A stretch of 46,010 nucleotides of DNA from positions 1 through 46,010 of the forward strand of contig JAUNTL010000014.1 in the NCBI GenBank assembly GCA_030538705.1. The letters run 5' to 3'. Positions 16,645 through 38,314 of this stretch are shown here, piece by piece. Below the pieces are notes generated by a model. The model saw only the letters and a list, made by a program, of their open reading frames with translations. It was not told the origin of the DNA and did not search any database. The stretch comes from Paracoccus sp. (in: a-proteobacteria) (GTDB lineage: Bacteria; Pseudomonadota; Alphaproteobacteria; Rhodobacterales; Rhodobacteraceae). Each line of letters begins with the position of its first letter. The stretch's first letter is position 1. The position numbers were made by a program, and so were the translations under genes.

Positions 16645-16645
16645 C

Positions 16646-20795: not shown

Positions 20796-20823
20796 CAAAT
20801 GAGATCAGGGCGTGTGGGCCGGC

Positions 20824-23264: not shown

Positions 23265-23457
23265 GCGCCCATCCTTCTGCTTTTGTCGCGCCGTGATACA
23301 CGCCGCACGCGCCCCGCGCAACGCCGCCTGCCAGTCTGCGGCGGCCGCGTGCCGCCGGATTAATCATCTCTGTGTGAGGCGGCCCGGATCATGCAGATCT
23401 CAGCAGGCGGGCTGATCCCCGCGACCACGGACCAAAAGCGCGACGGGACAAGGCCCG

Positions 23458-24180: not shown

Positions 24181-25550
24181 GCGGTGCCGCCCCCGACGGC
24201 CCGACGCGCCGCAGGATGGACACGCTGGATCATCTGGCCGGTTTCGCGCGCAACCTGCGCTTTGACGACCTGCCCGATGCGGTCGTCCGCGCGGCCGGCC
24301 GGTCTGTGCTGGACTGCACGACGGCCGCCCTTGCCGGGTCGGGCGGCACCGGCGCGGCGGCGGCACGCGGGGCCGCAATGGCGGCCTTTGGTCAGGATCA
24401 GGCCGCGTCCTTGTGGTTTACCGGCCGGAAGGCACCCGTTCTTGCGGCCGTGCTGGGTAATTGCACGGCGGCAAGCATCCTTGATCTGGATGACGGCCAC
24501 CGCGCCGCCATCGGCCATCCCGGCGCCGCGATCATTCCGGCCTGCCTCGCCATTGCCGAGGAACAAGGCAGCAGCTGGCAGGATCTGATCACCGCGATTG
24601 TCCTTGGCTATGAGATCGCGGTCAGGGTTGCGGCGGCCCGCGATGCCGCGCGGCTGGACACCATGTCGACCGGCCGCTGGGCCAGCTACGGCGTGGCCGC
24701 CGCAACCGCCCGGCTGCGCGGGCTGGATCACGCCGCCATGGTGCAGGCCATGGCCATCGCCGGGGTCCATGCCCCGAACCAATCCGCCGCCGGCTATTCC
24801 AAAATCATGGGCAACCATGTCAAGGAAGGCATTCCCTGGAGCGCGCTGACCGGCAGCATGGCCGTATCTCTGGCGCAGGCCGGCCTGACCGGCCCGACCG
24901 ATATCCTTGATCACGCGGACTATTTCGATGCCGGGGCCGTGCTGCGCGACCTGGGGCAATCCTTTGAAATCGAAGGCACTTATTTCAAGCCCTATTCCTG
25001 CTGTCGCTGGGCCCATGCCGCGATAGACGGGTTGCACGAGGTTCTGACGGCACAGCAGATCGGCTGGCAGGCGGTCGAGGCGGTCGAGGTCCATACCTTT
25101 GAGCGTGCATTGAGGCTGAGCAACGAGGCCGACCCCGACACGCTGGAAGGCGCGCAATACAGCGTTCCCTTTGTCCTTGGCGTTGCGGCGACCGAGGGGG
25201 TCGGCGCGTTGTTGCCGCTGACCGGCGCCAGCCTTCAGCGCGCGCCGGCTGTCAGCTTTGCCCGGCGGGTGGCGCTGATGGTCGATCCCGATATCGACCG
25301 CGCCTTTCCCGCCCGGACCGGCGCCCGGATCGTGATCCGCACCGCCGCCGCCGAACACAGCCGCATCATCCGCCACCCTCTGGGAGACCCGGCCAACCCG
25401 ATGTCACGGGCGCAGCTTCTGGAAAAGCTGCACATCGCCACACGCGCGGTCATGACGCCCTCCCGGCAGGCCGAGATTACCGCCGCGCTGAGCGATTTCG
25501 AAGCCGGGGACTACCGCCCCCTGCTTGGCGCATTGGCCAAGGCTATGTAG
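24177..25550 (+). CDS. MmgE/PrpD family protein
   Basis: A 457-residue member of the MmgE/PrpD family (2-methylcitrate dehydratase, cis-aconitate decarboxylase, iminodisuccinate epimerase and others). Visible: the helical start DHLAGFARNLRFDDLPDAVV, GHRAAIGHPGAAIIPACLA, GRWASYGVAAATARL, the active-site region SAAGYSKIMGNHVKEGIPW, and YFKPYSCCRWAHAAIDGL. The exact substrate cannot be read from the sequence. It overlaps the truncated permease by four bases. Codon use is GC-rich like the host genes, unlike the island that starts just downstream, so it probably belonged to a former uptake-plus-catabolism operon with the permease. Confidence 0.88.
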   Translation: MSGAAPDGPTRRRMDTLDHLAGFARNLRFDDLPDAVVRAAGRSVLDCTTAALAGSGGTGAAAARGAAMAAFGQDQAASLWFTGRKAPVLAAVLGNCTAASILDLDDGHRAAIGHPGAAIIPACLAIAEEQGSSWQDLITAIVLGYEIAVRVAAARDAARLDTMSTGRWASYGVAAATARLRGLDHAAMVQAMAIAGVHAPNQSAAGYSKIMGNHVKEGIPWSALTGSMAVSLAQAGLTGPTDILDHADYFDAGAVLRDLGQSFEIEGTYFKPYSCCRWAHAAIDGLHEVLTAQQIGWQAVEAVEVHTFERALRLSNEADPDTLEGAQYSVPFVLGVAATEGVGALLPLTGASLQRAPAVSFARRVALMVDPDIDRAFPARTGARIVIRTAAAEHSRIIRHPLGDPANPMSRAQLLEKLHIATRAVMTPSRQAEITAALSDFEAGDYRPLLGALAKAM

Positions 25551-25685: not shown

Positions 25686-27089
25686 CTAATCCGCAACCAG
25701 TCGTGCCGCGCTGCGACCGGCGATAGCGCCCATAACCACGGCTGATAGAAGGCCATTACCGGCGCTGTATCCCTTGCCCCCCGCGCCGGAGATCCCCCGC
25801 GCGGCCCCGCCGGCCGCAAACAGATTCGGAAAGGCACTTCCGTTCGGACGGAGAACCCGGCCGGTCACGTCAATCTCCAGACCGCCCTGGGTGTGGAACA
25901 ACGCGCCGGTCACTCGAACCGCATAAAAAGGCGCCTTGAGCAGCGTTTCATCAGAGAAACTGCGGCCGAACTCATCCCGAGTACCGTCCACAGCGTGGCG
26001 CGCCATCGCGGCAAAGACGGATTCCAGCGCATCGAGGGGCAAGGACAGATCATCCGCCATTTCGCCAAGCGTTGCGAATCTCCTGACAGCGCCTGCTGCA
26101 AGCGCATCTCGATAGTCCCTGAACTCTGCCAGCAGCAGATCGTGAATCCGCTGGTCATAGACGTTCCAGACCATCTTACCGGGTTGCTGAAGAACGGTCC
26201 GCGCCTGCTCGGAATACCCGCCATGCTCGTTCGAGAAGCGATAACCCTCGCTGTTGATCTGAACCCCACCTTGCAACGTAACAACCCAGGCAATCAGAAT
26301 CTGATGCGGCACGGCCAGCGATCCGTGGCCCTGATAGCCCCCAAGGTCACGCAGGCTGGCGCCCAGAGCATCGCCCCACCGCAATGCATCGCCTTCGTTG
26401 CCATCATGACCAAAATAGCAGGCATCCTGCATTTCAGGGAGATGTTGGGCAATCAGCTCCGGGCTGGCGCCGAAGCCGCTGCACGCAAGCAGCAATGCAT
26501 CGCAGCCAATCGTTTCATGCCGCCCGTCCGGGCGGGTCAGACCGACGCCACGGATCAGACCGTCACTGCCGGCATATAGCTCTGTGACGCGAGCATTGGT
26601 CACAACAGGAATACCTAATTTCTCGGCTGCCAGAACCAGACCACCCATCAACTCTTCGCCGGTGCGTTGCGGCGTGGCATGCATCCGCATTCGGCTGTGC
26701 CCCGGATACAGAAAGCCCGTGATAAGGGAAAATTGCAGGCCGTGCTGATCCGCTAGCCACTCAATCACGCCGCCGGCCTGCTGTGAAAGCACCTGAACAA
26801 TCGCCGGGTCGGCCTCATGATCATTCTTGGCCTGAATATCGGCGGCCATGGTCTCGGGGTCGTCACCTACACCGGCCAGCCGTTGAAACCTCGTTCCAGC
26901 CGCGGGGATAAAGCCCGACGACATGGCCGTACTGCCGCGCGGCACCGGGTCGCGCTCCAGAACCAGCGCCTCGGCCCCGGCATCCTGAGCCGCAAGCGCG
27001 GCGACCAGACCGCAACCGCCCCCGCCTATGATGACAAGCGGAACATGGGCGTCAAAACGGGTGCTGTGGTCAGCGGCAATGATCGTCAT
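25686..27089 (-). CDS. FAD-dependent oxidoreductase (FAD_binding_2 / fumarate reductase-type flavoprotein)
   Basis: A 467-residue flavoprotein. The dinucleotide-binding start VIIGGGGCGLVAALAAQ, GSTAMSSGF and the C-terminal FAD contact FPNLFAAGGAARGISG place it among fumarate reductase, tricarballylate dehydrogenase and 3-ketosteroid dehydrogenase flavoproteins, which form or reduce a carbon-carbon double bond next to a carbonyl or carboxylate. No haem-binding CXXCH and no signal peptide are present, so it is cytosolic and needs a separate electron partner. Last gene of the leftward island operon, overlapping the deacetylase gene by four bases. In this context, oxidation of a succinate-like acid to its fumarate-like form is a reasonable inference. 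Confidence 0.88.
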   Translation of the reverse strand: MTIIAADHSTRFDAHVPLVIIGGGGCGLVAALAAQDAGAEALVLERDPVPRGSTAMSSGFIPAAGTRFQRLAGVGDDPETMAADIQAKNDHEADPAIVQVLSQQAGGVIEWLADQHGLQFSLITGFLYPGHSRMRMHATPQRTGEELMGGLVLAAEKLGIPVVTNARVTELYAGSDGLIRGVGLTRPDGRHETIGCDALLLACSGFGASPELIAQHLPEMQDACYFGHDGNEGDALRWGDALGASLRDLGGYQGHGSLAVPHQILIAWVVTLQGGVQINSEGYRFSNEHGGYSEQARTVLQQPGKMVWNVYDQRIHDLLLAEFRDYRDALAAGAVRRFATLGEMADDLSLPLDALESVFAAMARHAVDGTRDEFGRSFSDETLLKAPFYAVRVTGALFHTQGGLEIDVTGRVLRPNGSAFPNLFAAGGAARGISGAGGKGYSAGNGLLSAVVMGAIAGRSAARLVAD

Positions 27090-28024
27090 CGGTCCGCCCC
27101 TGTAGCCTGGGCCAGAAAGGCGTCAAGGATTTCCCCTGCGGGTGCGTGCCAGACAAGGTCACGATCAACCACATGATCCAGCACCGTCTCAAGGCAGGCA
27201 ATCCGATGCGGTTGGCCAACCATCCAGGGGTGCAGGCTGATACCAAGCATACGCCCCCCTTTTTCCTTCGCCTCGGCGACCAGAAAATCAAAAGTATCGG
27301 TAACTTGCCGGACCCATGAATCTTCTGAATGAAGGTTATGGCCGATGACAAACTGATCCTCGATTTCAGCACTGAGCGGCATGGACATCACTGTGCCGGC
27401 GGTTGCCTTCATAGCATATGGCATGTCGTCATTGACCCAGTCAGCGCAATATTCGATGCCGTTCTCGGCCAGCAAATCCAGCGTATTCTCGCTTTGATTG
27501 CGTGCCGGACTGAGCCAGCCGCGCACCCTGTCACCGCTCAGCCGGCGCAAGGTTCCAACGGACCGGGCAATCAATTCGGCCTCTTCAGCCCGGTCCTGCC
27601 CGCCATAATGAAGATCATCCATGGTCCAACCGTGGCAAATGAATTCGGCACCGTAATCGCGCAGCCGGTTCATCAGATACGGCGTCTGTTCAGCCAGCCG
27701 CGCATTTATGGCAAATGTGGGGCGTATATCGCGAGCGGAGAATGCCTGAAGGATACGGTAAATGCCAACGCGGTTGCCATAGTCACGCAAAGTGAAATGG
27801 CGCAGGTCCGGGTATGGCATGACCATGCCATTAGGCACCTTGAAGGGCACGCCGCGTTGATTCAGGGGATAAAACTGAAGCGAGACATTGACCCACAGTG
27901 CCAGCGGCTTCCCACCGGGCCAGACAATCGGCGCACGGTCGGACAGCATCTTCCACTCATAACGTCCGTGATCATATCCATAACCCCGCCGGGGATATTT
28001 CAAATAACTGTCATCGACCGCCAT
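27086..28024 (-). CDS. Polysaccharide deacetylase-family hydrolase, PuuE/cyclic-amide type (first copy)
   Basis: A 312-residue protein with the NodB/PuuE-type barrel. It shows the features of PuuE allantoinases and cyclic imidases rather than true polysaccharide deacetylases: no TFDDG motif, but FICHGWTMDDLHYG, GWLSPARNQSENTLDLLAENG, DWVNDDMPYAM and LGISLHPWMVGQPHRI. The N-terminal strand is IVWPGGKPLALWVNVSL. Hydrolysis of a cyclic amide or imide ring is the expected reaction; substrate unknown. It is coupled to both neighbours: the stop of the second deacetylase gene and its start share a base, and it overlaps the flavoprotein gene by four bases. Confidence 0.87.
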   Translation of the reverse strand: MAVDDSYLKYPRRGYGYDHGRYEWKMLSDRAPIVWPGGKPLALWVNVSLQFYPLNQRGVPFKVPNGMVMPYPDLRHFTLRDYGNRVGIYRILQAFSARDIRPTFAINARLAEQTPYLMNRLRDYGAEFICHGWTMDDLHYGGQDRAEEAELIARSVGTLRRLSGDRVRGWLSPARNQSENTLDLLAENGIEYCADWVNDDMPYAMKATAGTVMSMPLSAEIEDQFVIGHNLHSEDSWVRQVTDTFDFLVAEAKEKGGRMLGISLHPWMVGQPHRIACLETVLDHVVDRDLVWHAPAGEILDAFLAQATGADR

Positions 28025-28968
28025 TACCCCCGCCCTTTCGATTTCAAGGCTATATCGCCAAGCGTGCCATCATAGTAATTTTTCAGGTAATGGGTTGCGA
28101 TCTCGCGCCCTGTCGTGACCCAAACCTCAGAATGGCCGGTAATATATTCCAGAGCCTCCTCGAAAACCTTGATGCGATGCGGGCAACTGATTTGATAATT
28201 GTGAGTCGGGATACACATTACCGTGCCACTGTCCGCACCCTCGCTGTAAAGCCGATCAAAATTTCTCTTCAGCATGGTCAGGTAGTGATGCGGCTCGACC
28301 TTATTGACCGCAAAGGCAATAGTATCATTCATCTCCAGCGAATAAGGCACCGAGACGAACCGCCGGCCCGAGCGAACGCGGATCGGTGTCGGCTGGTCGT
28401 CATGGAACAGATCGCAAGTGTATATGCCCGCCGATTCACCAAACATTTCCTGCCCGACCTCGGAAAAAATATCCAGCGTATGTTCGGAATGGGAAAGTGC
28501 CGGCGCGAGATATCCCGCACAATGCTGGCCGGTGTGACGATAGATCGTTTCAATCGTATCGCGGATCATCGAGCGTTCCTGCGTCTCGGTCAGCCCATAG
28601 GTGTAGCGTGTATTATAAACGCCGTGGCTAAAAAACTCCCATCCGCGTTCACGGCACATCGCGATAATTTCGGGGTGATGATCGCAAAGCGCCGCAGAAA
28701 GAGATACAGAACCGCGGATTCCGTATTTGTCCAGAACATCCATCTGCCGGCGATGACCGACGCGATTTCCATAGTCCCGGATGCTGAACCCGGGGATAGA
28801 AGGATGCGGTGTTGGCCAGGGTTTACGTAGCGGATTCAGCGGTGGATCATATTCGTAATATTCGATATTTGGCGCAACCCAGAAGGCGACGCGCGCACCA
28901 CCCGGCCATGTTATTTTCGGGCGATTTTCATAGGGCCAGTAGTCATAGACGTCGAGAGCTTCCTTCAT
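28024..28968 (-). CDS. Polysaccharide deacetylase-family hydrolase, PuuE/cyclic-amide type (second copy)
   Basis: A 314-residue relative of the neighbouring protein but clearly divergent from it. ITWPGGARVAFWVAPNIEYYE opens the barrel (split by length here), FSIRDYGNRVGHRRQMDVL is the conserved core, and the active-site stretches are EFFSHGVYNTRYTYG, GYLAPALSHSEHTLDIF, FHDDQPTPI and IPTHNYQISCPHRI. Since the His-bearing motifs differ from the first copy (PTHNYQ against SLHPWM), the two may form a heteromer or act on successive substrates. The ATG at 28968 has GGGGAA upstream and gives the normal family start. It begins 14 bp after the cysteine hydrolase gene ends. Confidence 0.87.
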   Translation of the reverse strand: MKEALDVYDYWPYENRPKITWPGGARVAFWVAPNIEYYEYDPPLNPLRKPWPTPHPSIPGFSIRDYGNRVGHRRQMDVLDKYGIRGSVSLSAALCDHHPEIIAMCRERGWEFFSHGVYNTRYTYGLTETQERSMIRDTIETIYRHTGQHCAGYLAPALSHSEHTLDIFSEVGQEMFGESAGIYTCDLFHDDQPTPIRVRSGRRFVSVPYSLEMNDTIAFAVNKVEPHHYLTMLKRNFDRLYSEGADSGTVMCIPTHNYQISCPHRIKVFEEALEYITGHSEVWVTTGREIATHYLKNYYDGTLGDIALKSKGRG

Positions 28969-28982
28969 CGCAGATTCCCCGT

Positions 28983-29654
28983 TCACTCTGCTGAGCAGCT
29001 GTCCAACCATGACTTGACTTCGGCTACGGGCAGGACATCAGCATATTTCAGCAAGAGGTCAGTCAAATTAGCGTAGTGATAACTCTCATGTTTATCGGCG
29101 ACACATTCCATCGGGACGATCGTGCGATAGCCGCGCGACAGACTGTCAACCGCAGTCGCCCTAATGCAGCCAGAGGTTGATCCACCCGTCAAAACAACCG
29201 TATCCACACCATGCCAGACCAGAAGCGACTGCAAAGGCGTTTCAAAAAAAGCCGAAGGCATACGCTTGGTGTAAATTACATCCTGCTTTTCATCTATTTC
29301 GCAACGCTCGTCGAACTCGTGCCGTTCGGAATCATATTTGATGTTCTGAAGAGAATCAGGCGTATTGGTGCGTGTCCCCCAGACCCCCGCATCTGCAGCC
29401 GAATCAAGATAGGCTACATGGGTCCACACGACGGGCCAGCCAAGCATGCGGAAACGCCGTGCAAGCGCATTGGTATGCGCCAACTGATCAGGGTCGGCCT
29501 CATAGGCGGTCTTGAAAAGATCGGTCCGGGTATAGGCTTTTTGCGGATCAACATTGATCAGAACCGCTTTGCGGCCGAATCCGAAGGGCACGCGTTGAGG
29601 ATTATCCAGAACCTCAAAGAAAAGCTCTTTGGCGGTCTTGTGAGTGGCAATCAT
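28983..29654 (-). CDS. Cysteine hydrolase, isochorismatase superfamily (N-carbamoylsarcosine amidase / maleamate amidase type)
   Basis: A 223-residue amidohydrolase. The Asp-Lys-Cys catalytic triad is visible: Asp in LINVDPQKAYTR, Lys in IYTKRMPSAFFETPL, and Cys in LTGGSTSGCIRATAVDSLS, the last being the signature of N-carbamoylsarcosine amidase-like and maleamate amidase-like (NicF) enzymes. It releases ammonia (or carbamate) from a linear amide. Next to two ring-opening hydrolases, hydrolysis of the half-amide they produce is the obvious inferred role. It overlaps the lyase gene by four bases. Confidence 0.88.
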   Translation of the reverse strand: MIATHKTAKELFFEVLDNPQRVPFGFGRKAVLINVDPQKAYTRTDLFKTAYEADPDQLAHTNALARRFRMLGWPVVWTHVAYLDSAADAGVWGTRTNTPDSLQNIKYDSERHEFDERCEIDEKQDVIYTKRMPSAFFETPLQSLLVWHGVDTVVLTGGSTSGCIRATAVDSLSRGYRTIVPMECVADKHESYHYANLTDLLLKYADVLPVAEVKSWLDSCSAE

Positions 29655-30547
29655 CTTTCGGCCCCTTCCTGTCCGGCATTTTCATATCGAGCGCCAAGGT
29701 CGAGCATCTCCTGAGTCCCCAGATAGGCATTCAGCTGGCCGAAATCGAGCATCTGATCCCGAAATGCGTCGGTCGTGCCATCGTTTCGCAAAGTAGCAAA
29801 CAAACGCGTCGCCATGTGGATCATTGCGCGCACCAGCGCACCCGGAAAGATAACCAGAGAGAAACCGAGACTCTGCAATGTCCTGGCGTTCTTGAGTGGT
29901 GTATCCCCGCCCTCTACCATATTTGCCATGATCGGAACGCGCCCGCGGAAACGCCGCATCAACTGATCAATATCATTGTCGCCGCGGATACCCTCTACAA
30001 ACAGCATATCAGCGCCGGCCTCGACATAGGCTTCAGCCCGGTCGAGCGCGGCCTCTGCCCCCTCGACGGCAATCGCATCCGTACGCCCGATGATCAGAGT
30101 CCGGTCACTGTCACGCGCATCCAGTGCAGCATGCAACTTGCCGCGCATCTCGGTAACTGGCACCAGCGTTTTTCCACGTAGATGGCCACAGCGTTTCGGA
30201 TAGGTTTGGTCCTCAAGCTGAATCGCGTTTGCACCCGCTCGTTCCAGCATTCGGACGCTTCGCATCACATTGATCGCGTTTCCGAATCCCGTATCACAGT
30301 CGACGATGATTGATGCATCGGTTCGCTCACGGATATGACCGAGGGCGTTATTGACCTCTGTTACACTCAAAAGTCCGATATCGGGGCGCCCAAGCTGAGT
30401 ATAGGCAAGGCTTGCCCCCGACAGATAGACGGTATCAAACCCGGCCGCAGCGGCAAGCGATGCTCCAAGCGCATCATAGACGCCGGGCGCCACCTCAATG
30501 GTTGGCGAGGCAAGGCGTTCTTTCAACTTGCTGGGATCCTGGTTCAT
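29651..30547 (-). CDS. Isocitrate lyase / PEP mutase-family lyase
   Basis: A 298-residue barrel enzyme of the ICL/PEPM superfamily. The PEPM-type start APGVYDALGASLAAAAGF, metal-binding VDCDTGFGN, the gating-loop motif QTYPKRCGHLRG with the catalytic Cys, and IGRTDAIAVEG are all intact. The KRCGH loop marks a carbon-carbon lyase (methylisocitrate, dimethylmalate or 2-alkylmalate type) rather than a phosphonate mutase. The family splits a 2-hydroxy diacid into pyruvate or glyoxylate plus a carboxylate. With the LeuCD-like hydro-lyase in the divergent operon it makes a hydratase-lyase pair as in the dimethylmaleate branch of nicotinate fermentation (DmdAB and Dml). Confidence 0.9.
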   Translation of the reverse strand: MNQDPSKLKERLASPTIEVAPGVYDALGASLAAAAGFDTVYLSGASLAYTQLGRPDIGLLSVTEVNNALGHIRERTDASIIVDCDTGFGNAINVMRSVRMLERAGANAIQLEDQTYPKRCGHLRGKTLVPVTEMRGKLHAALDARDSDRTLIIGRTDAIAVEGAEAALDRAEAYVEAGADMLFVEGIRGDNDIDQLMRRFRGRVPIMANMVEGGDTPLKNARTLQSLGFSLVIFPGALVRAMIHMATRLFATLRNDGTTDAFRDQMLDFGQLNAYLGTQEMLDLGARYENAGQEGAER

Positions 30548-30577
30548 TTGCAGGGACTTTCCTAAGGAGGCTGAGGT

Positions 30578-31015
30578 TTAGCAGCGCACAAGAGCCAGAT
30601 CGTTCCACACGTCCTGACGCAGCAATAGCCCACCGCGCAGTTCAAAACGGTCGATAAACCGGATACCTTTAAAAGCGCTTCCATCGGGCCATTCGCCTGA
30701 CAGCCATCCGTTGCAGATCACGACAGTGCGAGACTCTTGCCCACAGCTGTCAAAAGCGCAGAAGGTCTTGTGGACAAAGCGGTATCTGCTTGAGCCAAAG
30801 GCGACGAGCTGCTCCAACTCCGTCATTTCCGGGCTGCCGGGAAACTGCATGGTAAAGTCAGGCGCCAGCCATTGGCGGGCGGCATCCAGATCACGCGCCT
30901 CCATCGCAGCAAGAAAGGCGCGCACAATCCGCTCTGCATCGGCTGCCGGCGTGAATGCCACGTCCTGCACCGCGTCATCCGGGCCATCCGGGCCATCCGG
31001 TTCTCGATCACGCAT
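30578..31015 (-). CDS. NTF2-like / SnoaL-like small protein
   Basis: A 145-residue protein with the cone-shaped NTF2/SnoaL fold pattern: DAERIVRAFLAAMEARDLDA, then LAPDFTMQFPGSPEM, YRFVHKTFCAFD, and IRFIDRFELRGGLLLRQDVW. The fold serves isomerases, cyclases, dehydratases or simple binding proteins; no catalytic assignment is safe. GGGCAGGG just before the ATG at 31015 supports this start over an ATG at 31060. The N-terminus encodes a run PDGPDGPDD from a nine-base tandem repeat. First gene of the leftward operon, 30 bp before the lyase gene. Confidence 0.78.
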   Translation of the reverse strand: MRDREPDGPDGPDDAVQDVAFTPAADAERIVRAFLAAMEARDLDAARQWLAPDFTMQFPGSPEMTELEQLVAFGSSRYRFVHKTFCAFDSCGQESRTVVICNGWLSGEWPDGSAFKGIRFIDRFELRGGLLLRQDVWNDLALVRC

Positions 31016-31077
31016 TCCCTGCCCTTTGCTCAGGTGACTGGAAGTAGCGTAGTGCGACATGTAGACTAGAGGTTTAT

Positions 31078-31102
31078 ATGTATTACATAAGATACATTAC
31101 AT
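31078..31102. promoter_or_regulatory. Candidate GntR operator: two AT-rich 11-mers
   Basis: ATGTATTACAT (31078-31088, itself a perfect palindrome about its central T) and ATACATTACAT (31092-31102) lie in tandem with a 14-bp period between the divergent NTF2-like and gntR genes. The 8-mer ATGTATTA recurs exactly, in inverse orientation (TAATACAT), at 32051-32058 before the leuC-like operon. This is the best candidate binding site of the neighbouring regulator. Confidence 0.55.
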
Positions 31103-31114
31103 CTACCCTTCTTG

Positions 31115-31129
31115 CTTGACCCGGTCAAG
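31115..31129. promoter_or_regulatory. Perfect 15-bp palindrome upstream of gntR
   Basis: CTTGACC-C-GGTCAAG, seven-base arms around one base, 50 bp before the gntR start codon. It contains TTGACC, which could serve as a -35 element, so a regulator bound here would block the gntR promoter. Whether this or the 31078-31102 motif is the GntR site cannot be told from sequence. Confidence 0.45.
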
Positions 31130-31178
31130 CCGGCTGACAACTTAGCTGACCGAGAATGGACGTCAGGAGAATATCAGA

Positions 31179-31997
31179 ATGAACGAAGCCCAGGCCGCGG
31201 CTACGCGTGGGATAAAGGCCCATCGGATCTTCCTGCTACTCAAGGACGCGATCAACAGCGGTCGCATCGCCGCAGGCGAGAAGCTGCCCGGAGAGATCAG
31301 CCTTGCGGAGCAACACAGCGTGTCGCGTGTCACCGTACGCCGCGCCATGGCAGCATTGAGTGAAGCCGGACTTGTGACGCGACGAGCCGGAATCGGTACG
31401 GTGGTGCTGGAGCAGCCGCTCAACACAACGCTGACCGGCAGCGTCGAGAGCCTGCTGCCCAACAAGCAAAAATTGAACGAGGCTTCCAGCGTCCGCTTAT
31501 TGGAGTTCCGCTACATAGAGGCAGTTGGAACAGTTCGCGATCGCCTGGCGCTCACACCGCGCGAAAGGGTTCAGCGGTCTATTCGCGTGCGCTCGACCAA
31601 TGGCATTCCCTTCGGCTACCTGGTTACACATGTGCCCGAACGGCTTGCCCTCAACTATGTCGAATCCGATCTCGCAACACAGCCGCTTTACGCGCTTCTG
31701 GAGCGGAGCGGAGTCAAGGTCAGCCATGCAACACAGACAATTTCCGCCGTCCTGGCCGACCCGGAGGTCGCCCGGGCACTGGAGGTCGCCGTCGGCTCAC
31801 CGCTGATATCTCTGTCGCGCGTGACGCGGGACGAAGAGGGGCGCGGCGTGCAATGCCTGGAGGCACTCTATCGCCCGGATCGTTATCAGTTGCAGATCGA
31901 ACTTGTCAGAAGCGGAAGCGGTACAGAACGGTCATGGGAATCGGTTCCCGGCGAACAGGAACACACACCATCAGAGCCTGCGGCCGCGCAGCCCTGA
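31179..31997 (+). CDS. GntR-family transcription regulator, HutC/UTRA type
   Basis: A 272-residue regulator. The winged-helix domain (residues 10-75) has LPGEISLAEQHSVSRVTVRR as recognition region and AGLVTRRAGIGTVV as wing. The UTRA ligand-binding domain follows (about 95-245), with IPFGYLVTHVPE and the end EALYRPDRYQLQIEL. The tail past 250 is disordered. CAGGAG lies ten bases before the ATG. It stands between the two divergent catabolic operons, so it is probably their local regulator, with a pathway intermediate as effector; most HutC proteins are repressors released by such a ligand. Confidence 0.92.
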   Translation: MNEAQAAATRGIKAHRIFLLLKDAINSGRIAAGEKLPGEISLAEQHSVSRVTVRRAMAALSEAGLVTRRAGIGTVVLEQPLNTTLTGSVESLLPNKQKLNEASSVRLLEFRYIEAVGTVRDRLALTPRERVQRSIRVRSTNGIPFGYLVTHVPERLALNYVESDLATQPLYALLERSGVKVSHATQTISAVLADPEVARALEVAVGSPLISLSRVTRDEEGRGVQCLEALYRPDRYQLQIELVRSGSGTERSWESVPGEQEHTPSEPAAAQP

Positions 31998-32050
31998 GAA
32001 GGTTTGCACATCTCATCATACCGGAATCAACCATTTTATTGACTCTTTTA

Positions 32051-32058
32051 TAATACAT
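32051..32058. promoter_or_regulatory. Operator-like half-site before the leuC-like operon
   Basis: TAATACAT, the exact inverse of ATGTATTA at 31078-31085. It overlaps TATAAT (32049-32054), which looks like a -10 element, although no well-spaced -35 is seen. Such an overlap would fit repression by the GntR protein. Confidence 0.4.
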
Positions 32059-32129
32059 TTGACTGGATGATTGAACAGCGCTTAAGGTTGATCACGAGGA
32101 AGGCCCGTTACACCCCTGGAAGCAGGTAT

Positions 32130-33527
32130 ATGACGACAGCTTCGACGCTATTCGACAAGGTCTGGGATGCGCATGAGATCTTGCGGTCCGATGACGGACG
32201 CAGCCTGCTGTGGGTTGACCGGCATTTCGTTCATGAAGGTTCGTTTCATGCCTTTGCGGCCCTTGCCGACCGCAATCTGGCCGTCTCTCGTCCTGACCTG
32301 ACCTTCGGCGTTGCCGACCATTATGTTCCGACTCGCGGACGCCATGAGACAGAGCTGGGCGATCCGAAAGTTCGCGCCATGGTCCGCCAACTGACTGAAC
32401 ACACATCCCGCCATGGTATCCAGCTGTTCGGGCTGGGCGATCAACATCAGGGCATCGTCCATGTTATCGGGCCAGAGCAGGGTCTGACTCAACCCGGCCT
32501 GCTGATTGTTTGTGGCGACAGCCACACCTCGACCCATGGTGCTTTTGGCGCGATCTCCTTCGGGATCGGCGCCTCGGATGTCGCCCATGTATTGGCGACC
32601 CAGACCCTATGGCAGGTTCGCCCCAAGCGTATGCGCCTGAGTATAAATGGCGAGCTTGCACCCGGCGTTGGCGCAAAGGACATCGCGCTGACCTGGATCA
32701 GACGTCTGGGCGCGGATGGAGCACGCGGCCACGTCATTGAATATACGGGCGATACCGTGCGCACCATGTCTATGGAGGCACGAATGACGCTGTGCAATAT
32801 GTCGATCGAAGGTGGTGCGCGCTATGGCATGGTTGCACCTGATGAAACAACATTCACCTACCTGCGCAACCGGCCCTGGGGGCCACCCGCCGCCGAGCTG
32901 GACACGGCGATCGATACGTGGCGTCAGTTCCAAACGGACGAGAACGCCGTCTTTGATCGAGAGATCGCCCTCAATGCCTCGGCGATTTCACCAACCGTCA
33001 CATGGGGCGTTTCGCCAGAGGAAGCGCTGCCAATCGACGGCATCATACCCGACCCTGCCACGCTAGACGATCCAGAGAAGGCACGACAGTTTTCTGAGAG
33101 CCTTGATTACATGGGCCTTCGGCCCGGGCAGAAGCTGACCGACATCAAGATAGACCGTGTCTTTATCGGCTCCTGCACGAATGCGCGGATCGAGGATCTG
33201 CGCGCCGCTGCGGAGGTGTTAAAGAACAGGCGCAGCCGCGTGCCCGGCCTGGTCGTGCCCGGATCGAGCCAGGTCAAGATGCAGGCCGAGCAGGAAGGGC
33301 TTGACCGTATCTTCCTCGAAGCGGGTCTGGAGTGGCGCAATTCAGGTTGTTCGATGTGTGTCAGCATGAACGGGGACCGTGTGCCACCGGGCGAGCGCTG
33401 CGCCTCGACGACCAACCGCAACTTTCGCGGACGTCAGGGGCCGGGATCACGCACACACCTGATGTCACCGCCCATGGTTGCAGCGGCCGCCGTCGCGGGC
33501 CGCCTGACCGATATCCGCGATCTCTAG
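32130..33527 (+). CDS. 3-isopropylmalate dehydratase-like hydro-lyase, large subunit (LeuC family)
   Basis: A 465-residue aconitase-superfamily large subunit with all three iron-sulfur cysteines: GSCTNARIEDLRAAAEVL and NSGCSMCVSMN. GDSHTSTHGAFGAISFGIGA and GERCASTTNRNFRGRQGPG are strongly LeuC-like. Size is that of LeuC. The ATG at 32130 with GGAAGCAGG upstream gives the normal start (TTASTLFDKVWDAHEI). It lies with LeuD and TRAP genes in a catabolic operon rather than with leuB or leuA, so a role as hydratase of a dicarboxylic acid (citraconate- or dimethylmaleate-like) is inferred. A second copy of true leuC elsewhere in the genome would be expected. Confidence 0.9.
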   Translation: MTTASTLFDKVWDAHEILRSDDGRSLLWVDRHFVHEGSFHAFAALADRNLAVSRPDLTFGVADHYVPTRGRHETELGDPKVRAMVRQLTEHTSRHGIQLFGLGDQHQGIVHVIGPEQGLTQPGLLIVCGDSHTSTHGAFGAISFGIGASDVAHVLATQTLWQVRPKRMRLSINGELAPGVGAKDIALTWIRRLGADGARGHVIEYTGDTVRTMSMEARMTLCNMSIEGGARYGMVAPDETTFTYLRNRPWGPPAAELDTAIDTWRQFQTDENAVFDREIALNASAISPTVTWGVSPEEALPIDGIIPDPATLDDPEKARQFSESLDYMGLRPGQKLTDIKIDRVFIGSCTNARIEDLRAAAEVLKNRRSRVPGLVVPGSSQVKMQAEQEGLDRIFLEAGLEWRNSGCSMCVSMNGDRVPPGERCASTTNRNFRGRQGPGSRTHLMSPPMVAAAAVAGRLTDIRDL

Positions 33528-33537
33528 GTCCATCAAG

Positions 33538-34227
33538 ATGCAACCATTCACCCGCCTGGATGCCCCAGCCTGCCCACTGCCCCTGGCAAATCTTGATACA
33601 GATCAACTGATCCCGGCACGCTTTATGAAAGAGCCGCGCAAGGCAGGCTATGGTAGTTTCTTGTTATACGATCTGCGTCGTAACGCAGAAGGGGTTCTAC
33701 GACCCGGTTTCATCCTGAATCGCCCCCACGCCGGCAGCGCTCGAACGCTGGTGGCACGACGTAATTTCGGCGCTGGCTCCTCGCGCGAAGCGGCAGTTTA
33801 CGCACTTGTCGATTTCGGCTTTCGCTGCGTCATCGCACCCAGCTTCGGTGATATTTTCGCCGCGAACGCTGTGAATAACGGCCTGCTTCCAGCAACGGTG
33901 GCCGAAGCAGATGCCGAGAAGATCCTTTCAATTCTTGGCGATGACATCAGCCCGGTGATCGTCGATCTGGATATGCTGACCATTGTCGCAGGCGGATGCA
34001 AATTCACGTTTTCGATTATCGACACCTGGCGGACCAAACTGCTGAACGGCTGGGACGACATCACTCTGACGCAGCGCCATCAACAAGAAATCGGCAGTTT
34101 TGCACATGAGCGCGCCAAGCGCTTGCCTTGGACCGTTCCCAGACGACCATCGGAAACACCCCCAAACGCCAAGCGGCAGGATAGCCGCACCCTAATTCCT
34201 GCTTCCAACAGAGGGAAATCAACATGA
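33538..34227 (+). CDS. 3-isopropylmalate dehydratase-like hydro-lyase, small subunit (LeuD family)
   Basis: A 229-residue swivelling-domain subunit. ANLDTDQLIPARFMK carries the substrate-facing loop and RRNFGAGSSREAAVYALVDFG the conserved Arg/Ser region; FGDIFAANAVNNGLLPA is typical LeuD. The last 40 residues (after LPWTVPRR) are a basic, low-complexity tail. It starts 10 bp after the large subunit and overlaps the TRAP binding-protein gene by four bases. Confidence 0.9.
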   Translation: MQPFTRLDAPACPLPLANLDTDQLIPARFMKEPRKAGYGSFLLYDLRRNAEGVLRPGFILNRPHAGSARTLVARRNFGAGSSREAAVYALVDFGFRCVIAPSFGDIFAANAVNNGLLPATVAEADAEKILSILGDDISPVIVDLDMLTIVAGGCKFTFSIIDTWRTKLLNGWDDITLTQRHQQEIGSFAHERAKRLPWTVPRRPSETPPNAKRQDSRTLIPASNRGKST

Positions 34228-35225
34228 ACAGGATCGTCTTGACTGCAATCGGGGGCGTCATGCTCTCTTTCGCGACGCAGACCATGGCCGAAGACAGGTT
34301 GACGGCCGTGGCGGCCTTTCCTCCGTCACTGGTCTATACTCAAAGCTTTCTCGAATTCGTTGATCTGGTGAATGAGCGCGGCGAGGGCGTCATCCATATC
34401 GACGTGCGTGGCGGACCCGAGGTCATCGGGCAGGCGCAACAGCCCGATGCAGTTCGCAATGGCGTCATCGACATGGCATATACAGCCGCAAGCTTTTACG
34501 CAGGCACTGTCCCAGAACGCGATGTTCTGGTTGCCTCGAACAGCAACGCCATTCATGCGCGCGAAAATGGTGGTATCGACCTATTGAACCAGATCCATCA
34601 AGAGAAAATGGAGGTTTATTACCTCGGCTGGTTCGACAGCGGCATCGGCTATAACCTCTACAGTATCAGGGAACCAAAGCTGGACGCCGAGGGCAATCTG
34701 GACGCGTCTGGCATGACGTTGCGCAGCAATCCGGTATATGATGCCTTTTTCAGAGATTACCTTAAAGTCGAACCGATCAGCTTGCCGACGGGAGATGTCT
34801 ATGCCGCGCTTGAGCGTGGCGTGGTAGACGCAACAGGCTGGACACAGATCGGCCTTAAGGATCTGCGTTGGGATCGTTTCCTGAAATACCGCGTTGATCC
34901 GGCCTTTTTCTCAACCGACATGGGCGTCATCATCAACCTGAACAAGTGGAATTCGCTCAGCGATGAATCGCGCCAATTGCTGCAAGAAATCGCGATCGAA
35001 CACGAGCGTAACAGCGCGACCCATTTCGAGGAAGTCGGAAAAGAACAGGCGGCCGAGCTGGAAAGCGAGGGCATGACCGTGGTAACATTGGAAGGTGAGG
35101 CCGGCGAGCGCTATTCAGAATCCGCACGTGAAGCAACATGGAATCGGATGCGCGAACAAATGGAACGTCACCCGATGGGGCTGGAACATTATGACCGGCT
35201 GATCGAGCTTTTCAACAATCTTTGA
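34224..35225 (+). CDS. TRAP transporter periplasmic substrate-binding protein (DctP family)
   Basis: A 333-residue exported protein with a signal peptide cut near TMA-ED (residue 22). The DctP fold shows YTQSFLEFVDLVNERGEG, a family-conserved region MTLRSNPVYDAFFRDYL where the carboxylate-binding Arg lies, and GVVDATGWTQIGLKDL. It captures an organic acid or amide in the periplasm for the DctQM channel; the ligand cannot be read from sequence. AGAGGGAAA precedes the ATG, which overlaps the leuD-like stop. A hairpin follows the gene and probably raises its mRNA level relative to the membrane subunits. Confidence 0.92.
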   Translation: MNRIVLTAIGGVMLSFATQTMAEDRLTAVAAFPPSLVYTQSFLEFVDLVNERGEGVIHIDVRGGPEVIGQAQQPDAVRNGVIDMAYTAASFYAGTVPERDVLVASNSNAIHARENGGIDLLNQIHQEKMEVYYLGWFDSGIGYNLYSIREPKLDAEGNLDASGMTLRSNPVYDAFFRDYLKVEPISLPTGDVYAALERGVVDATGWTQIGLKDLRWDRFLKYRVDPAFFSTDMGVIINLNKWNSLSDESRQLLQEIAIEHERNSATHFEEVGKEQAAELESEGMTVVTLEGEAGERYSESAREATWNRMREQMERHPMGLEHYDRLIELFNNL

Positions 35226-35234
35226 TACAATAGC

Positions 35235-35262
35235 AGGGGGCGATTCTGATAACGCCCCCTTT
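35235..35262 (+). terminator. Hairpin between dctP-like and dctQ-like genes
   Basis: AGGGGGCG (35235-35242) pairs with CGCCCCCT (35253-35260) around a ten-base loop, followed by only three T. It is placed ten bases after the binding-protein stop and 23 bp before the next gene. A partial terminator or RNA-stabilising element that gives excess binding protein, as is common in transporter operons. Confidence 0.6.
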
Positions 35263-35285
35263 CACCAGATCAGCGGGGCAGGTCA

Positions 35286-35786
35286 ATGCTGGGTCGTTTC
35301 TACATGGCCATCTTGAATGGCATGGCTGTTATGGCAGGATTGCTGCTTATCTGGCTTCTGATTGCGGTTATTATAGCTGTCATTGGACGAAATCTGGGAA
35401 TGCAGCCGGCGGCTTGGCTGTTTCTGTCGACCGAATATGCGATGTTCTATCTGACGTTGCTTGGCGCACCTTGGCTGGTCCGACACAAAGGGCATGTCCA
35501 TATCGAACTACTCACCTCCGTTCTTTCGCCACGGGCGCTTAATATCCTCAGCCGCACAGTTGCTGCGCTTTGTATGCTCACCGCACTTGTTCTCGCCTGG
35601 AAAGGGCTTGACCTCGTATTGATGAACATCGCCCGAAGTGATTATGATGTCCGGGCCTATTTCGTACCAAAATGGATGCTGACGATCACTTTCCCGATCT
35701 GCTTCGGCATGATGGCGATCGAGTTTGCGCGCTTTGTCATCGGAAAAGACCTCCTTCACTCGGGCGTTGCGGGAATTCAAGAATGA
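35286..35786 (+). CDS. TRAP transporter small permease (DctQ family)
   Basis: A 166-residue inner-membrane protein with four hydrophobic segments and the DctQ pattern LLGAPWLVRHKGHVHIELL (membrane entry of the third helix). It pairs with the large permease to form the sodium-driven channel. The ATG at 35286 has GGGGCAGG upstream; its stop overlaps the dctM start (ATGA). Confidence 0.9.
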   Translation: MLGRFYMAILNGMAVMAGLLLIWLLIAVIIAVIGRNLGMQPAAWLFLSTEYAMFYLTLLGAPWLVRHKGHVHIELLTSVLSPRALNILSRTVAALCMLTALVLAWKGLDLVLMNIARSDYDVRAYFVPKWMLTITFPICFGMMAIEFARFVIGKDLLHSGVAGIQE

Positions 35787-37096
35787 TGGAATGGTATTTC
35801 ACGCTCGCCATCTTGCTAAGTATGATTTTGGCGCTCATGGCAATCGGCACACCTATTGCGATTGCCTTTCTGGCCGCAAACGTCCTTGGCGCCTGGTATT
35901 TCATGGGGGGTGGTGCCGGCGTGATCCAGATGCTGGACAATGGATTTGGCGCACTGTCCAGCTTTTCTCTGGTGCCGATCCCGCTGTTTTTGCTGATGGG
36001 TGAGCTGTTCTTTCGTACCGGACTAGGAATGCGGATGTTCAACGCCATTGACAGGCTGATGGGTCGGGTGCCGGGTCGATTATCTTATGTTACTGTTGTT
36101 GGGGGAACGGCATTTGCAACGCTCAGCGGCTCGTCCATGGGGTCAACCGCTCTCATGGGGTCGATCCTGGTGCCAGAAATGGAACGGCGAGGTTATAAGA
36201 AGCATATGTCGATAGGCCCCATCCTCGGCACCGGTGGCCTGGCTATTATTATCCCGCCCTCGGCACTTGCTGTCTTGTTGGCAACACTGGCAAAAATCGA
36301 CATTGGCGCACTATTGATAGCTGGAATAATTCCTGGCCTCATTCTCGCCTCCTTCTACATCATTACGATTTTTATCCAGACCAAAATTGATCCGCAGGCC
36401 GCGCCGGAATACTCCTTGCCACCCGTGTCTGGCCGTGAAAAATTCATCCTTATTTTTCGTGATATTCTGCCGATGATCTCGGTTATGGTCATTATCATCG
36501 CAATGATGCTGGGCGGCCTGGCAACGCCATCTGAATCGGCAGCATTCGGCGCGCTCGGAGTGATTATTCTGGCGACAATATTCCGCTGCATCAGTTTCGA
36601 GGCGTTGCGCGCCTCAATCATAGGAGCGCTGCGGGTAACGCTGATGGCCTATCTAATTGTTTTTGGATCGGCAACGTTCAGCCAGTTACTGGCGTTTACC
36701 GGCGCATCCAGCGGGCTGATCCAATGGGCAACCAGCCTTGACCTTGCGCCGATCATCATGCTCATCACCATGTTCTGCGTGCTGCTGATCCTGGGCACCT
36801 TCATGGAACAGATCAGTATAATGATGTTGACCGTTCCTTTCTTCTTCCCGCTGGCAGATTCGCTTGGCTTTGATCTGATCTGGTTTGGAATCGTCGTTCT
36901 GCTTGCGCTGGAGATCAGCTTTTCCACCCCGCCGCTGGGGCTGCTCCTCTTTGTTATGAAGGGTGTTGCGCCCCCCGGAACCTCCATGCACACGATCTAT
37001 ATGGCCGCTATCCCATATATCCTGTGTTCTATTCTCCTGGTGGCTCTGATGACGGTCTTTCCGGGGATTGTGACGTGGCTGCCGAGCCTGCTTTGA
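35783..37096 (+). CDS. TRAP transporter large permease (DctM family)
   Basis: A 437-residue, roughly 12-helix permease. Hallmarks: PIPLFLLMGELFFRTGL, VGGTAFATLSGSSMGSTALM, IGPILGTGGLAIIIPPSALA, MLGGLATPSESAAFGALG, and FLVMKGVAPPGTS-like ending LLLFVMKGVAPPGTSMHTIY. The ATG at 35783 overlaps the dctQ-like stop by four bases. It is the last gene of the rightward island operon. A run of seven T (37109-37115) follows without a clear stem. Confidence 0.92.
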   Translation: MMEWYFTLAILLSMILALMAIGTPIAIAFLAANVLGAWYFMGGGAGVIQMLDNGFGALSSFSLVPIPLFLLMGELFFRTGLGMRMFNAIDRLMGRVPGRLSYVTVVGGTAFATLSGSSMGSTALMGSILVPEMERRGYKKHMSIGPILGTGGLAIIIPPSALAVLLATLAKIDIGALLIAGIIPGLILASFYIITIFIQTKIDPQAAPEYSLPPVSGREKFILIFRDILPMISVMVIIIAMMLGGLATPSESAAFGALGVIILATIFRCISFEALRASIIGALRVTLMAYLIVFGSATFSQLLAFTGASSGLIQWATSLDLAPIIMLITMFCVLLILGTFMEQISIMMLTVPFFFPLADSLGFDLIWFGIVVLLALEISFSTPPLGLLLFVMKGVAPPGTSMHTIYMAAIPYILCSILLVALMTVFPGIVTWLPSLL

Positions 37097-37178: not shown

Positions 37179-37394
37179 TCAGGATGAGCTGGGGGTGTAG
37201 TGCGGTTTGGACACCCCCCAAACCAAGCCGAACCGCGCGAGATATTTCCGCAGCCGGTCCACGTCATTGGTCGAGGCATTTTGCGCGCGTGGCACCGCAA
37301 ACAGCGCGCGCCTGGCCTCGCTGAGGCTGGCCGAGCGGGGACAGCATTTGGTCAGAAATACATCGCGCGGCCGCAACAGGCATTGCGGCCGCAC
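37179..37394 (-). CDS. Possible small protein overlapping the NlpE-like gene end
   Basis: A 71-codon GTG-started frame whose amino acid pattern looks more natural than that of the overlapping gene end: RDVFLTKCCPRSASLSEARR and NASTNDVDRLRKYLARFGLVW suggest two helices. No ribosome-binding site stands out and no family is recognised. It may be the remnant of a gene disrupted at the island boundary. Confidence 0.25.
   Translation of the reverse strand: MRPQCLLRPRDVFLTKCCPRSASLSEARRALFAVPRAQNASTNDVDRLRKYLARFGLVWGVSKPHYTPSSS
37204..37224. terminator. Hairpin at the right border of the island
   Basis: GGTTTGG (37204-37210) and CCAAACC (37218-37224) pair around seven bases, between the end of the TRAP operon and the convergent NlpE-like gene. 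It lacks a T run on both sides, so its terminator role is weak. Confidence 0.4.
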
Positions 37395-38220
37395 CCAATT
37401 TGTCAGCGCCCGGTTTCGTCAGCGCCCCGCTTCTGCGCGTCAGGCGGTATTCCTTACCGATGATCTCGCCGGTATCGTCGGCATAGGACAGGATGTCCTC
37501 TTCATCCAGCGTCAGGAAGGTATCCGGCTCATCCTCGCCGTCCGAGGCCAGCACGACCACACCGGATTGCATGAACCAGTCGCCCTGATCCTGAAACACG
37601 CCGTCCGCTTCCTCGCGGTAGGTCTGCGTGCGGGTATAGCTGCCGTCACGATACAGGTTCAGCGTGACCTCGATACCGGGGCAACTGGCGCAGGGGATGA
37701 CGCCCTGCCACATCCCGTCAAGACCCAGCGTCGCGACATCCTCGCCACCGACATAGCCCTCGGGCTTGTCCTCGCCGCCGGTGTCCACAACAAAGGCCGG
37801 CGGGGTATGATCGTCGTTTTCCACCTGCTGGATCGGGGCCGGCTTGCCCGCAAGCTGCGGGGTGAAGGTAAAGGATTGCGGGCCGGGATGGCCATCGGCG
37901 ACCGGGCCGGTCATGCCGACGCGGATCGTATAGATTGCATCCTCCGGCAGGGTGACGGGATCGTTATCCAGCAAAGGCTGCGAGATCGGGGAATACAGCA
38001 CGACCTCCATCGGGACGTCGGAATCCAGCGTGATCGTCAGCTTTTGCCCGGCGGCGCCTTCGAAATTATATTCGCAGAATTGCCGGCCCTCGATGACGCC
38101 GTCAACGCTGGCGGGATGGCTGCCATCCGCCGTGGCCCCGCAATCGGGCGCGCCCGCATGTGCCGCCGAGGCGACGCCAAGGGCCAGAATCGGTGCCGCA
38201 AGGACTGCCAGAATTTTCAT
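37264..38220 (-). CDS. NlpE-like exported protein
   Basis: A 318-residue protein with a signal peptide (residues 1-20, ending AAHAG). Residues 25-130 form a beta-sandwich-like domain (GRQFCEYNFEGAAGQKLTIT; EDAIYTIRVGM) that resembles lysozyme-inhibitor or pre-peptidase domains. Residues 165-260 are an NlpE-like domain: GMWQGVIPCASCPGIEVTL with its CXXC, then YTRTQTYREEADGVF and GKEYRLTRR. NlpE-type domains act in envelope copper and stress sensing. The last 55 residues after LTRRSGALTK are unlike the family and overlap another frame, so the natural C-terminus may have been replaced near the island border. No lipobox is visible. GGAAGAC precedes the ATG at 38220. Confidence 0.75.
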   Translation of the reverse strand: MKILAVLAAPILALGVASAAHAGAPDCGATADGSHPASVDGVIEGRQFCEYNFEGAAGQKLTITLDSDVPMEVVLYSPISQPLLDNDPVTLPEDAIYTIRVGMTGPVADGHPGPQSFTFTPQLAGKPAPIQQVENDDHTPPAFVVDTGGEDKPEGYVGGEDVATLGLDGMWQGVIPCASCPGIEVTLNLYRDGSYTRTQTYREEADGVFQDQGDWFMQSGVVVLASDGEDEPDTFLTLDEEDILSYADDTGEIIGKEYRLTRRSGALTKPGADKLGAAAMPVAAARCISDQMLSPLGQPQRGQARAVCGATRAKCLDQ

Positions 38221-38314
38221 GTCGTCTTCCTTTCGATTCACGACGGGATCATTTCCGTGACAGAGATATGGGGGGCAAGTGTTGGGAAACCGTGGAGATT
38301 TCCTGTAATTTGTG

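Follow-up and report, generated by a model that had tools for sequence, protein, structure and literature searches.

A conserved, self-regulated gene island in Paracoccus sp. predicted to import and degrade cyclic imides, with tetrapyrrole fragments as candidate substrates

Which compound is taken up and degraded by the products of a twelve-gene island of Paracoccus sp. that reads like a catabolic pathway? The island occupies positions 25686-37096 of the window, by which we mean the whole analysed stretch of 46,010 nucleotides (assembly GCA_030538705.1, contig JAUNTL010000014.1). An earlier sequence-only reading had interpreted it as a complete route from a cyclic imide or amide to pyruvate, an interpretation which is partly supported by the present analysis. 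The island is real, conserved and self-regulated, and it very probably encodes a catabolic pathway of the cyclic-imide type. On balance we favour a self-contained regulon that would import a cyclic imide and degrade it to central metabolites, the likeliest substrates being maleimides and succinimides of tetrapyrrole origin.

Profile scans and open reading frame (ORF) translations confirmed the presence of all gene families named in that reading, as well as their organisation in two divergent, mostly coupled operons: the genes within each operon abut or overlap (Table 1). The minus-strand operon codes for a SnoaL_2 protein, a lyase of the isocitrate lyase (ICL) family, an isochorismatase-fold hydrolase, two PuuE-like hydrolases (PuuE2 and PuuE1) and an FAD flavoprotein. 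The plus-strand operon codes for a GntR/UTRA regulator, LeuC, LeuD and the TRAP transporter components DctP, DctQ and DctM. The SnoaL_2/NTF2-like gene is an extra member that had not been listed before. Family-library scans covered ten of the island genes, DctQ and DctM being identified from ORFs and synteny alone.

Related loci were fetched with PuuE2 as the query. Of 474 confirmed relatives the analysis retained the best 80, a sample which leans to the closest ones, and gene presence was scored at identity thresholds of our own choice: 50% for the isochorismatase, 45% for PuuE1, 40% for LeuC, HacA and the flavoprotein, and 35% for the ICL-family lyase, the HMG-CoA-lyase-family protein (HMGL) and the CoA-transferase CaiB. 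The isochorismatase-PuuE2-PuuE1 triad is present in 79 of the 80 loci, the exception (L079) ending at its contig edge, and the window-type set (LeuC, lyase, flavoprotein and DctP) in 42. For the 64 loci that span at least 15 kb, the counts are 54 with a hydratase of LeuC or HacA type, 57 with a lyase route (ICL, or HMGL together with CaiB) and 52 with both. The same gene set recurs in at least eight named genera: Halomonas, Billgrantia, Vreelandella, Saccharospirillum, Marinobacter, Alloalcanivorax, Terasakiella and Hydrogenophaga. The co-occurrence in other genomes which had been proposed as a check of the sequence-only reading is therefore found.

The surroundings of the triad differ between taxa. 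Eight flavobacterial loci combine it with a HacA-type hydratase, CaiB and an HMG-CoA-lyase-family protein, without an ICL-family lyase. An Acidiphilium plasmid carries the triad and the CaiB/HMG-CoA-lyase-family route with LeuCD. On a Sphingobium plasmid, LeuCD occurs twice, accompanied by CaiB and by one gene each of the HMG-CoA-lyase and ICL families, and a Burkholderia plasmid combines a HacA-type hydratase with the flavoprotein and an ICL-family lyase. Literature matches listed for the strains with the Sphingobium, Acidiphilium and Sphingomonas plasmids included one paper, on tomato glycoalkaloids. Since the triad is constant while the hydratase and lyase families, all able to perform the same chemistry, vary, the loci presumably share the steps of hydrating a maleate and cutting a malate. 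The previously suggested logic of ring opening, deamidation, hydration and C-C cleavage is thus supported by the triad, the hydratase and either of the two lyase routes.

DctP scores above the TRAP_S1 cut-off (71.2 bits against 50) and does not reach that of the narrower TIGR00787 (47 against 175); its best PDB relative is 4mnc/4mni. The regulator has HTH and UTRA domains, and its score with the HutC histidine-utilisation repressor model is 117.2 bits, under the cut-off of 220. A palindrome was first read off Halomonadaceae loci, upstream of GntR and of LeuC, and then counted. Out of 46 loci considered, 39 were tested, namely those where GntR and LeuC were found in the expected orientation. 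GTNYTA-N4-TARNAC is located upstream of GntR in 31 of them, upstream of LeuC in 27 and in both places in 24. Over the 39 loci, 58 sites fall within the 15.7 kb inside these two regions and none in the 774 kb outside; the enrichment inside is partly by construction, as the same loci were used, while the absence outside is not. The exact form GTAYTA-N4-TAATAC was found at 27 distinct places in 12 whole genomes, 23 of them within the cluster (two in each of 11 genomes and one in G105), the other four being in G099, G248 and G100 (two). A reversed control pattern gave 13 strand matches in the 12 genomes versus 46 for the exact form, so one or two stray places per genome are expected by chance. In the window, a weight matrix run over one strand placed its top three 16-mers at 31080, 31071 and 32041, all within the two intergenic regions; none of these operator-like sites is perfect, and that at 32041 is weak. 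As both promoters share the palindrome, the twelve genes constitute one predicted regulon with a putative operator common to both operons, through which GntR would repress them. One pathway with its own transporter and regulator, as proposed earlier, is thereby supported by both the conserved synteny and the operator-like palindrome.

Both PuuE-like proteins belong to the Polysacc_deac_1 family. PuuE2 is the more conserved (149 positions invariant in 98% of 64 sequences versus 74 in as many PuuE1 sequences). It probably starts at the second methionine, about position 28968, because 62 of the 80 homologue matches begin at residues 7-15. Allantoinase activity was rejected for the pair, as the TIGR03212 (PuuE allantoinase) scores of 119.4 and 108.8 bits are far under the curated cut-off of 424.6. 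The HxxxH metal motif was located by alignment to PDB 3cl6: the first histidine is kept and the second is gone (H129/N133 in PuuE2 and H131/M135 in PuuE1, in at least 98% of 64 sequences each). Judged from this motif only, both proteins are of the metal-independent type, and the alignments suggest that they differ from the imidase-related HpPgdA type, which has the second metal histidine. PuuE allantoinase is described in excerpts of two papers as opening a small cyclic imide metal-free (PMC3084791, PMC10967932).

The Asp-Lys-Cys triad of the isochorismatase-fold protein is indeed intact, D36, K130 and C163 each being kept in at least 95% of 67 sequences. The protein stays under the equivalog cut-offs of RutB (27.3 of 378 bits) and BiuH (27 of 370), and no N-carbamoylsarcosine amidase model is among its NCBIfam matches.

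The Fe-S cysteines attributed to LeuC are present in its IGSCTN and SGCSMC motifs, and the lyase translation does contain the KRCGH motif. The lyase matches PDB 3fa3/3fa4 and scores 277.4 bits, not reaching the PrpB (methylisocitrate lyase) cut-off of 354.4. LeuC and LeuD pass the NCBIfam cut-offs of 3-isopropylmalate dehydratase (642.6 bits over 560.25 and 155.7 over 116.25), as would be expected if the island were a spare leucine-biosynthesis operon, or unrelated genes brought together by chance. The host assembly (3.4 Mb, 86.6% complete) adds to this, as no third LeuC or LeuD was found in it besides two cluster copies (the second cluster is described below) and aconitase. The suspicion that LeuCD is the sole leucine enzyme thus persists for the host itself but is countered by its relatives: another LeuC-length gene, assigned as the leucine enzyme by size and score, accompanies the cluster copy in all ten relatives searched. 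A second LeuC at 53-55% is also carried by the same-genus genomes G002 and G003, where the triad lies beside a 60-61% LeuC, and by G111, in which the triad was not looked for. In a midpoint-rooted tree of 35 LeuC rows, a clade of six housekeeping LeuCs stands separate from the cluster hydratases, which fall into several groups; the housekeeping rows come solely from the host's genus, the HacA branches are long, and one Sphingobium row (L125a) adjoins the housekeeping clade with weak support (85/42). The spare leucine operon was rejected on the second LeuC of the relatives and on the tree placement, chance clustering on the conserved set in at least eight genera, the synteny and the shared palindrome. 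Either explanation appears extremely improbable to us.

The flavoprotein belongs to the FAD_binding_2 family. In what we take to be the numbering of flavocytochrome c3, it keeps H365 and H504, and all 44 sequences compared have Tyr instead of R402, Trp instead of E378 and no Arg at the R544 position. With the catalytic Arg402 and the substrate Arg544 gone, a working fumarate reductase was rejected. The former description as "fumarate reductase-type" holds for the family and not for the activity, and a fumarate-reductase-like desaturation of a diacid finds no support in the active-site residues. Relatives of the flavoprotein include 3-ketosteroid dehydrogenases, which desaturate beside a carbonyl by means of a Tyr, so we propose that it may desaturate a succinimide.

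From the directly observed gene content, synteny, palindrome, RCC-reductase linkage in other bacteria (see below), catalytic residues and second LeuC of relatives we infer a pathway whose reactions are all proposals, as are its substrate and the direction of its regulation. The TRAP transporter would import a small anionic cyclic imide, and PuuE2/PuuE1 would open its ring to give a half-amide. Removal of ammonia from the latter by the isochorismatase-fold enzyme would leave a substituted maleate, to be hydrated by the LeuCD-like hydro-lyase to a substituted malate. Retro-aldol cleavage by the ICL-family lyase could then yield a 2-oxoacid (e.g., pyruvate) and a carboxylic acid. By its probable desaturation of the dihydro (succinimide) form, the flavoprotein would open the pathway to both redox states. 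Candidate substrates are most likely to come from chlorophyll or heme breakdown: hematinic acid, methyl-ethyl-maleimide and dihydrohematinic acid. The reduced ring D of chlorophyll is expected to yield a succinimide. Hydrolysis of hematinic acid with loss of ammonia would produce a homologue of cis-aconitate, the kind of compound on which enzymes of the aconitase/LeuCD fold naturally act; the hydrate of this homologue could be cut to pyruvate and glutarate or to 2-oxoglutarate and propionate.

Parts of the proposed pathway resemble known systems. In Blastobacter and Pseudomonas putida, simple cyclic imides are converted by an imidase and a half-amidase to a diacid and then to pyruvate by tricarboxylic acid cycle enzymes. 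The sequence imide, half-amide, diacid, C4/C3 acids is common to both routes, and the window adds a dedicated hydratase, a lyase, a flavoprotein, a TRAP importer, a regulator and two PuuE paralogues. DmdAB and 2,3-dimethylmalate lyase operate at the end of nicotinate fermentation in anaerobic, clostridia-type bacteria and involve no imide step; the likeness consists in LeuCD-type hydration of a disubstituted maleate followed by ICL-family cleavage, both proposed for the window.

Nicotinate pathways contain isochorismatase-fold NicF-type amidases as well as the dimethylmaleate-type hydratase and lyase, which also fits a cluster handling half-amides from pyridine-ring cleavage (N-formylmaleamate-like, from substituted nicotinate or vitamin B6) with PuuE acting as deformylases. 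A PuuE-related imidase is moreover employed in fungal nicotinate breakdown: in the hxn pathway of Aspergillus nidulans, the cyclic imidase HxnM is followed by the amidase HxnN, both steps being backed by gene deletion and metabolite data in the available excerpt (PMC9304392). However, no ring-cleaving dioxygenase, molybdenum hydroxylase or flavin ring hydroxylase was found among the ten island genes scanned, for which reason a pyridine-ring pathway was rejected, and the exact operator is nearly confined to the block in the 12 relatives (the host was not searched for it). We regard a pyridine origin as improbable. In hxn, as proposed for the window, a PuuE-related hydrolase opens a cyclic imide and an amidase frees ammonia. 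Unlike the window pathway, hxn deals with a six-membered imide and ends in 2-hydroxyglutarate, and its excerpt names no hydratase or lyase step. The earlier statement that no described pathway joins these steps has to be narrowed, since imide opening and amide hydrolysis were already described for fungal nicotinate catabolism (PMC9304392, in part). Among the matches listed from the open PMC literature, outside which subscription papers mostly lie, there is no account of this cluster or of bacterial maleimide catabolism.

Linkage in other bacteria suggests where the imide may come from. Red chlorophyll catabolite (RCC) reductase (RCCR, PF06405) exceeds its cut-off in 10 of the 48 triad genomes searched: 10 of 34 without the window-type cluster and none of 14 with it. 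PuuE2 lies 5.6-10.3 kb away from it in six of those ten, 25 kb away in one and 68 kb in another; the remaining two have the genes on different contigs. In the family of Halioglobus (Halieaceae, 140 genomes), RCCR is found in 10 genomes, PuuE2 in 30 and both in 9 (Fisher p 2.8e-6, uncorrected for kinship). The Halioglobus locus L057 combines the triad with an RCC_reductase protein, a Rieske/VanA_C oxygenase and a chlorophyllase-family protein. It also includes CaiB (best NCBIfam match succinate-glutarate CoA-transferase, 227.7 of 750 bits, well under the cut-off), an HMG-CoA-lyase-family protein, LeuCD and an ICL-family lyase. The RCCR of L057 scores 70.7 bits with PF06405 (cut-off 24.9), and its best solved relative is the plant chloroplast RCCR 3agb (E 3.5e-13). 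In Alkalimonas the triad lies 68 kb from the RCCR locus, which itself holds two RCCR genes together with LeuD, LeuC, an ICL-family lyase, an Amdase-family protein, a Rieske oxygenase and a rubredoxin reductase. Plant chlorophyll breakdown employs chlorophyllase, pheophorbide a oxygenase and RCC reductase, and genes of the RCC-reductase, Rieske and chlorophyllase families accompany the triad in Halioglobus and its kin; the plant route leads, in excerpted accounts, to phyllobilins, and the window block has none of its upper enzymes.

According to an excerpt of PMC7318184, oxidation of chlorophyll a yields hematinic acid both in vitro and in leaves; the paper cites maleimides from leaves and lake sediments and did not detect any itself. 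Release of hematinic acid from heme by E. coli ChuS is the subject of a title in the reference list of PMC8669743. In the excerpted part of PMC10151467, bilin reductases of non-photosynthetic bacteria are described in other gene clusters, with RCCRs as the outgroup.

A recurring RCCR module was observed in L057, L045, L080, L134, L135, L136 and L138. It consists of an SDR, a Pfam-less protein of about 200 aa (not seen in L135), RCCR, a Rieske/VanA_C oxygenase and a Pfam-less protein of about 323 aa; L134 adds a rubredoxin reductase and a flavin reductase. Its composition makes a bacterial chlorophyll or bilin breakdown cluster possible.

Several observations weigh against a tetrapyrrole-fed pathway of this design. 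No hydratase is seen in 10 of the 64 loci of at least 15 kb, one of which (L064) ends beside a LeuD. On a Salipiger abyssi plasmid (L126, PuuE2 51%) the triad homologues lie beside two amidases and hydantoinase A/B, the Rhizobium PuuE pair is located beside an amidase with no neighbouring isochorismatase, and the Comamonas homologues stand beside acyl-CoA enzymes with no hydratase. PuuE2 identity in these distant triads or pairs is 48-56%, and such settings suggest that the PuuE pair may serve several cyclic amides. The need for two PuuE paralogues is left unexplained by the proposed pathway. Halieaceae carriers of RCCR and PuuE2 share ancestry, which the Fisher test ignores, and in the nine genomes having both the distance is at most 10.3 kb in five, 49 kb in one and about 0.9 Mb in one (G139), two having them on different contigs. 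In five longer RCCR stretches fetched from four genomes, LeuCD and a lyase are present in L134, only an ICL-family lyase in L138, and neither in L135, L136 and L137. The RCCR of L057 keeps D291 and has Ala at E154 (presumably the plant RCCR numbering), so it may act on a bilin other than plant RCC. Finally, searches of the 14 window-type genomes and of the host assembly (86.6% complete) found no RCCR, which means that the monopyrrole would have to be imported by these organisms; the tetrapyrrole link runs via homologous core genes and not via this organism. Tetrapyrrole-derived imides, suggested speculatively before, are supported by the RCCR linkage elsewhere and disfavoured by the failure to find RCCR here.

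One hydratase-less locus, L067 of Saprospiraceae, has three Peripla_BP_2 proteins, a FecCD permease, an ABC ATPase and an S9 peptidase preceding the triad (2129-8951). FecCD-type importers carry heme, cobalamin or siderophores.

The failure to find RCCR in the 14 window-type genomes would also fit a pathway of the same logic for another imide or ureide (succinimide, citraconimide, hydantoins, plant or xenobiotic imides), the RCCR linkage being peculiar to Halieaceae and a few other gammaproteobacteria. So would the distant triad next to hydantoinase A/B and amidases, the N-carbamoylsarcosine amidohydrolases among the nearest solved structures to the amidase, and the porins, MFS transporters and transposases adjoining the Burkholderia and Acidiphilium plasmid copies, as often in xenobiotic islands. 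Against this reading stands the direct linkage of hydratase and lyase to RCCR in Alkalimonas; hydantoin routes, moreover, yield amino acids, for which a LeuCD hydratase and a malate-type lyase would be unneeded. We hold another imide to be unlikely, and tetrapyrrole fragments appear to be the best-supported substrate.

More tentatively, and with our confidence falling a little short of even, we speculate that these loci represent a bacterial lower pathway mineralising the maleimides and succinimides of chlorophyll and heme. In Halieaceae, Microbulbifer and Alkalimonas-type bacteria it would be joined to RCC-reductase and Rieske-oxygenase genes and, in part of them, to chlorophyllase-family genes as well, while Halomonadaceae and the window organism would keep the importer and the lower pathway and scavenge monopyrroles. 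If true, this would connect chlorophyll-type tetrapyrroles with central metabolism in bacteria and give a real function to genes now named leuCD, prpB and "polysaccharide deacetylase" in many marine genomes. Given a predicted operator, a binding protein and a few enzymes, the fate of monopyrrole fragments would become directly testable. Maleimides are the monopyrrole end products of chlorophyll and serve geochemists as sediment markers. About 10^12 kg of chlorophyll is made and destroyed a year, according to an excerpt of PMC7318184.

Among 37 same-genus genomes (host included), PuuE2 above 50% identity is present only in the host, G002 and G003, and Halomonadaceae PuuE2 proteins are 75-84% identical. 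Third-codon GC is 0.56-0.68 in the island versus 0.80 in the neighbouring MmgE/PrpD gene. Rarity in the genus, the closer Halomonadaceae PuuE2 and the composition point to horizontal acquisition of the island. A second, diverged set with a different gene order is located on contig C30 of the host (L090, G000:C30:1-14537). Its identities are 58% for the isochorismatase, 53% for PuuE2, 45% for PuuE1, 60% for LeuC, 41% for LeuD, 51% for the flavoprotein, 40% for the lyase and 29% for GntR; no SnoaL or TRAP gene was matched there at E 1e-6. Five un-annotated ORFs lie between the lyase and LeuD of this set and may code for a different importer.

Table 1. Genes and predicted operators of the island, in window coordinates
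Feature	Position	Strand	Remarks
FAD flavoprotein, flavocytochrome c/tricarballylate dehydrogenase/urocanate reductase superfamily	25686..27089	-	proposed desaturase of the succinimide (dihydro) form
PuuE1, PuuE-like cyclic amide hydrolase, NodB fold	27086..28024	-	
PuuE2, second PuuE-like hydrolase	28024..29010	-	likely start ~28968
Isochorismatase-fold amidase, Asp-Lys-Cys triad	28983..29654	-	proposed half-amide (maleamate-type) amidase
ICL/PEP-mutase superfamily lyase (KRCGH), methylisocitrate/2,3-dimethylmalate lyase-like	29651..30547	-	proposed alkylmalate lyase
SnoaL_2/NTF2-like protein	30578..31060	-	present in 36 of 80 loci
Predicted GntR operator, divergent intergenic region	31080..31095	.	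top-scoring 16-mer of the window; second, overlapping site at 31071
GntR/HutC-type regulator, HTH + UTRA	31179..31997	+	
Predicted GntR operator upstream of LeuC operon	32041..32056	.	third best in the window, weak
LeuC-like Fe-S hydro-lyase, large subunit	32067..33527	+	
LeuD-like small subunit	33538..34227	+	
DctP, TRAP solute-binding protein	34224..35225	+	
DctQ, TRAP small membrane subunit	35286..35786	+	from ORF and synteny
DctM, TRAP large membrane subunit	35786..37096	+	ORF listed from 35672, likely start 35786; from ORF and synteny

On the left, the island is adjoined by an ABC permease gene followed by the MmgE/PrpD-family gene (23458-25550, plus strand), which look like a separate operon. 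Downstream of the island, an NlpE-domain protein and then OEP, HlyD-type and ABC genes (37264-41258, minus strand) make up an export system. Positions 5747-23266 match Paracoccus replicons at 76-78% identity; the record annotation under one such match (host specificity protein, phage portal protein, fabF, mltG) is prophage-like or gene-transfer-agent-like.

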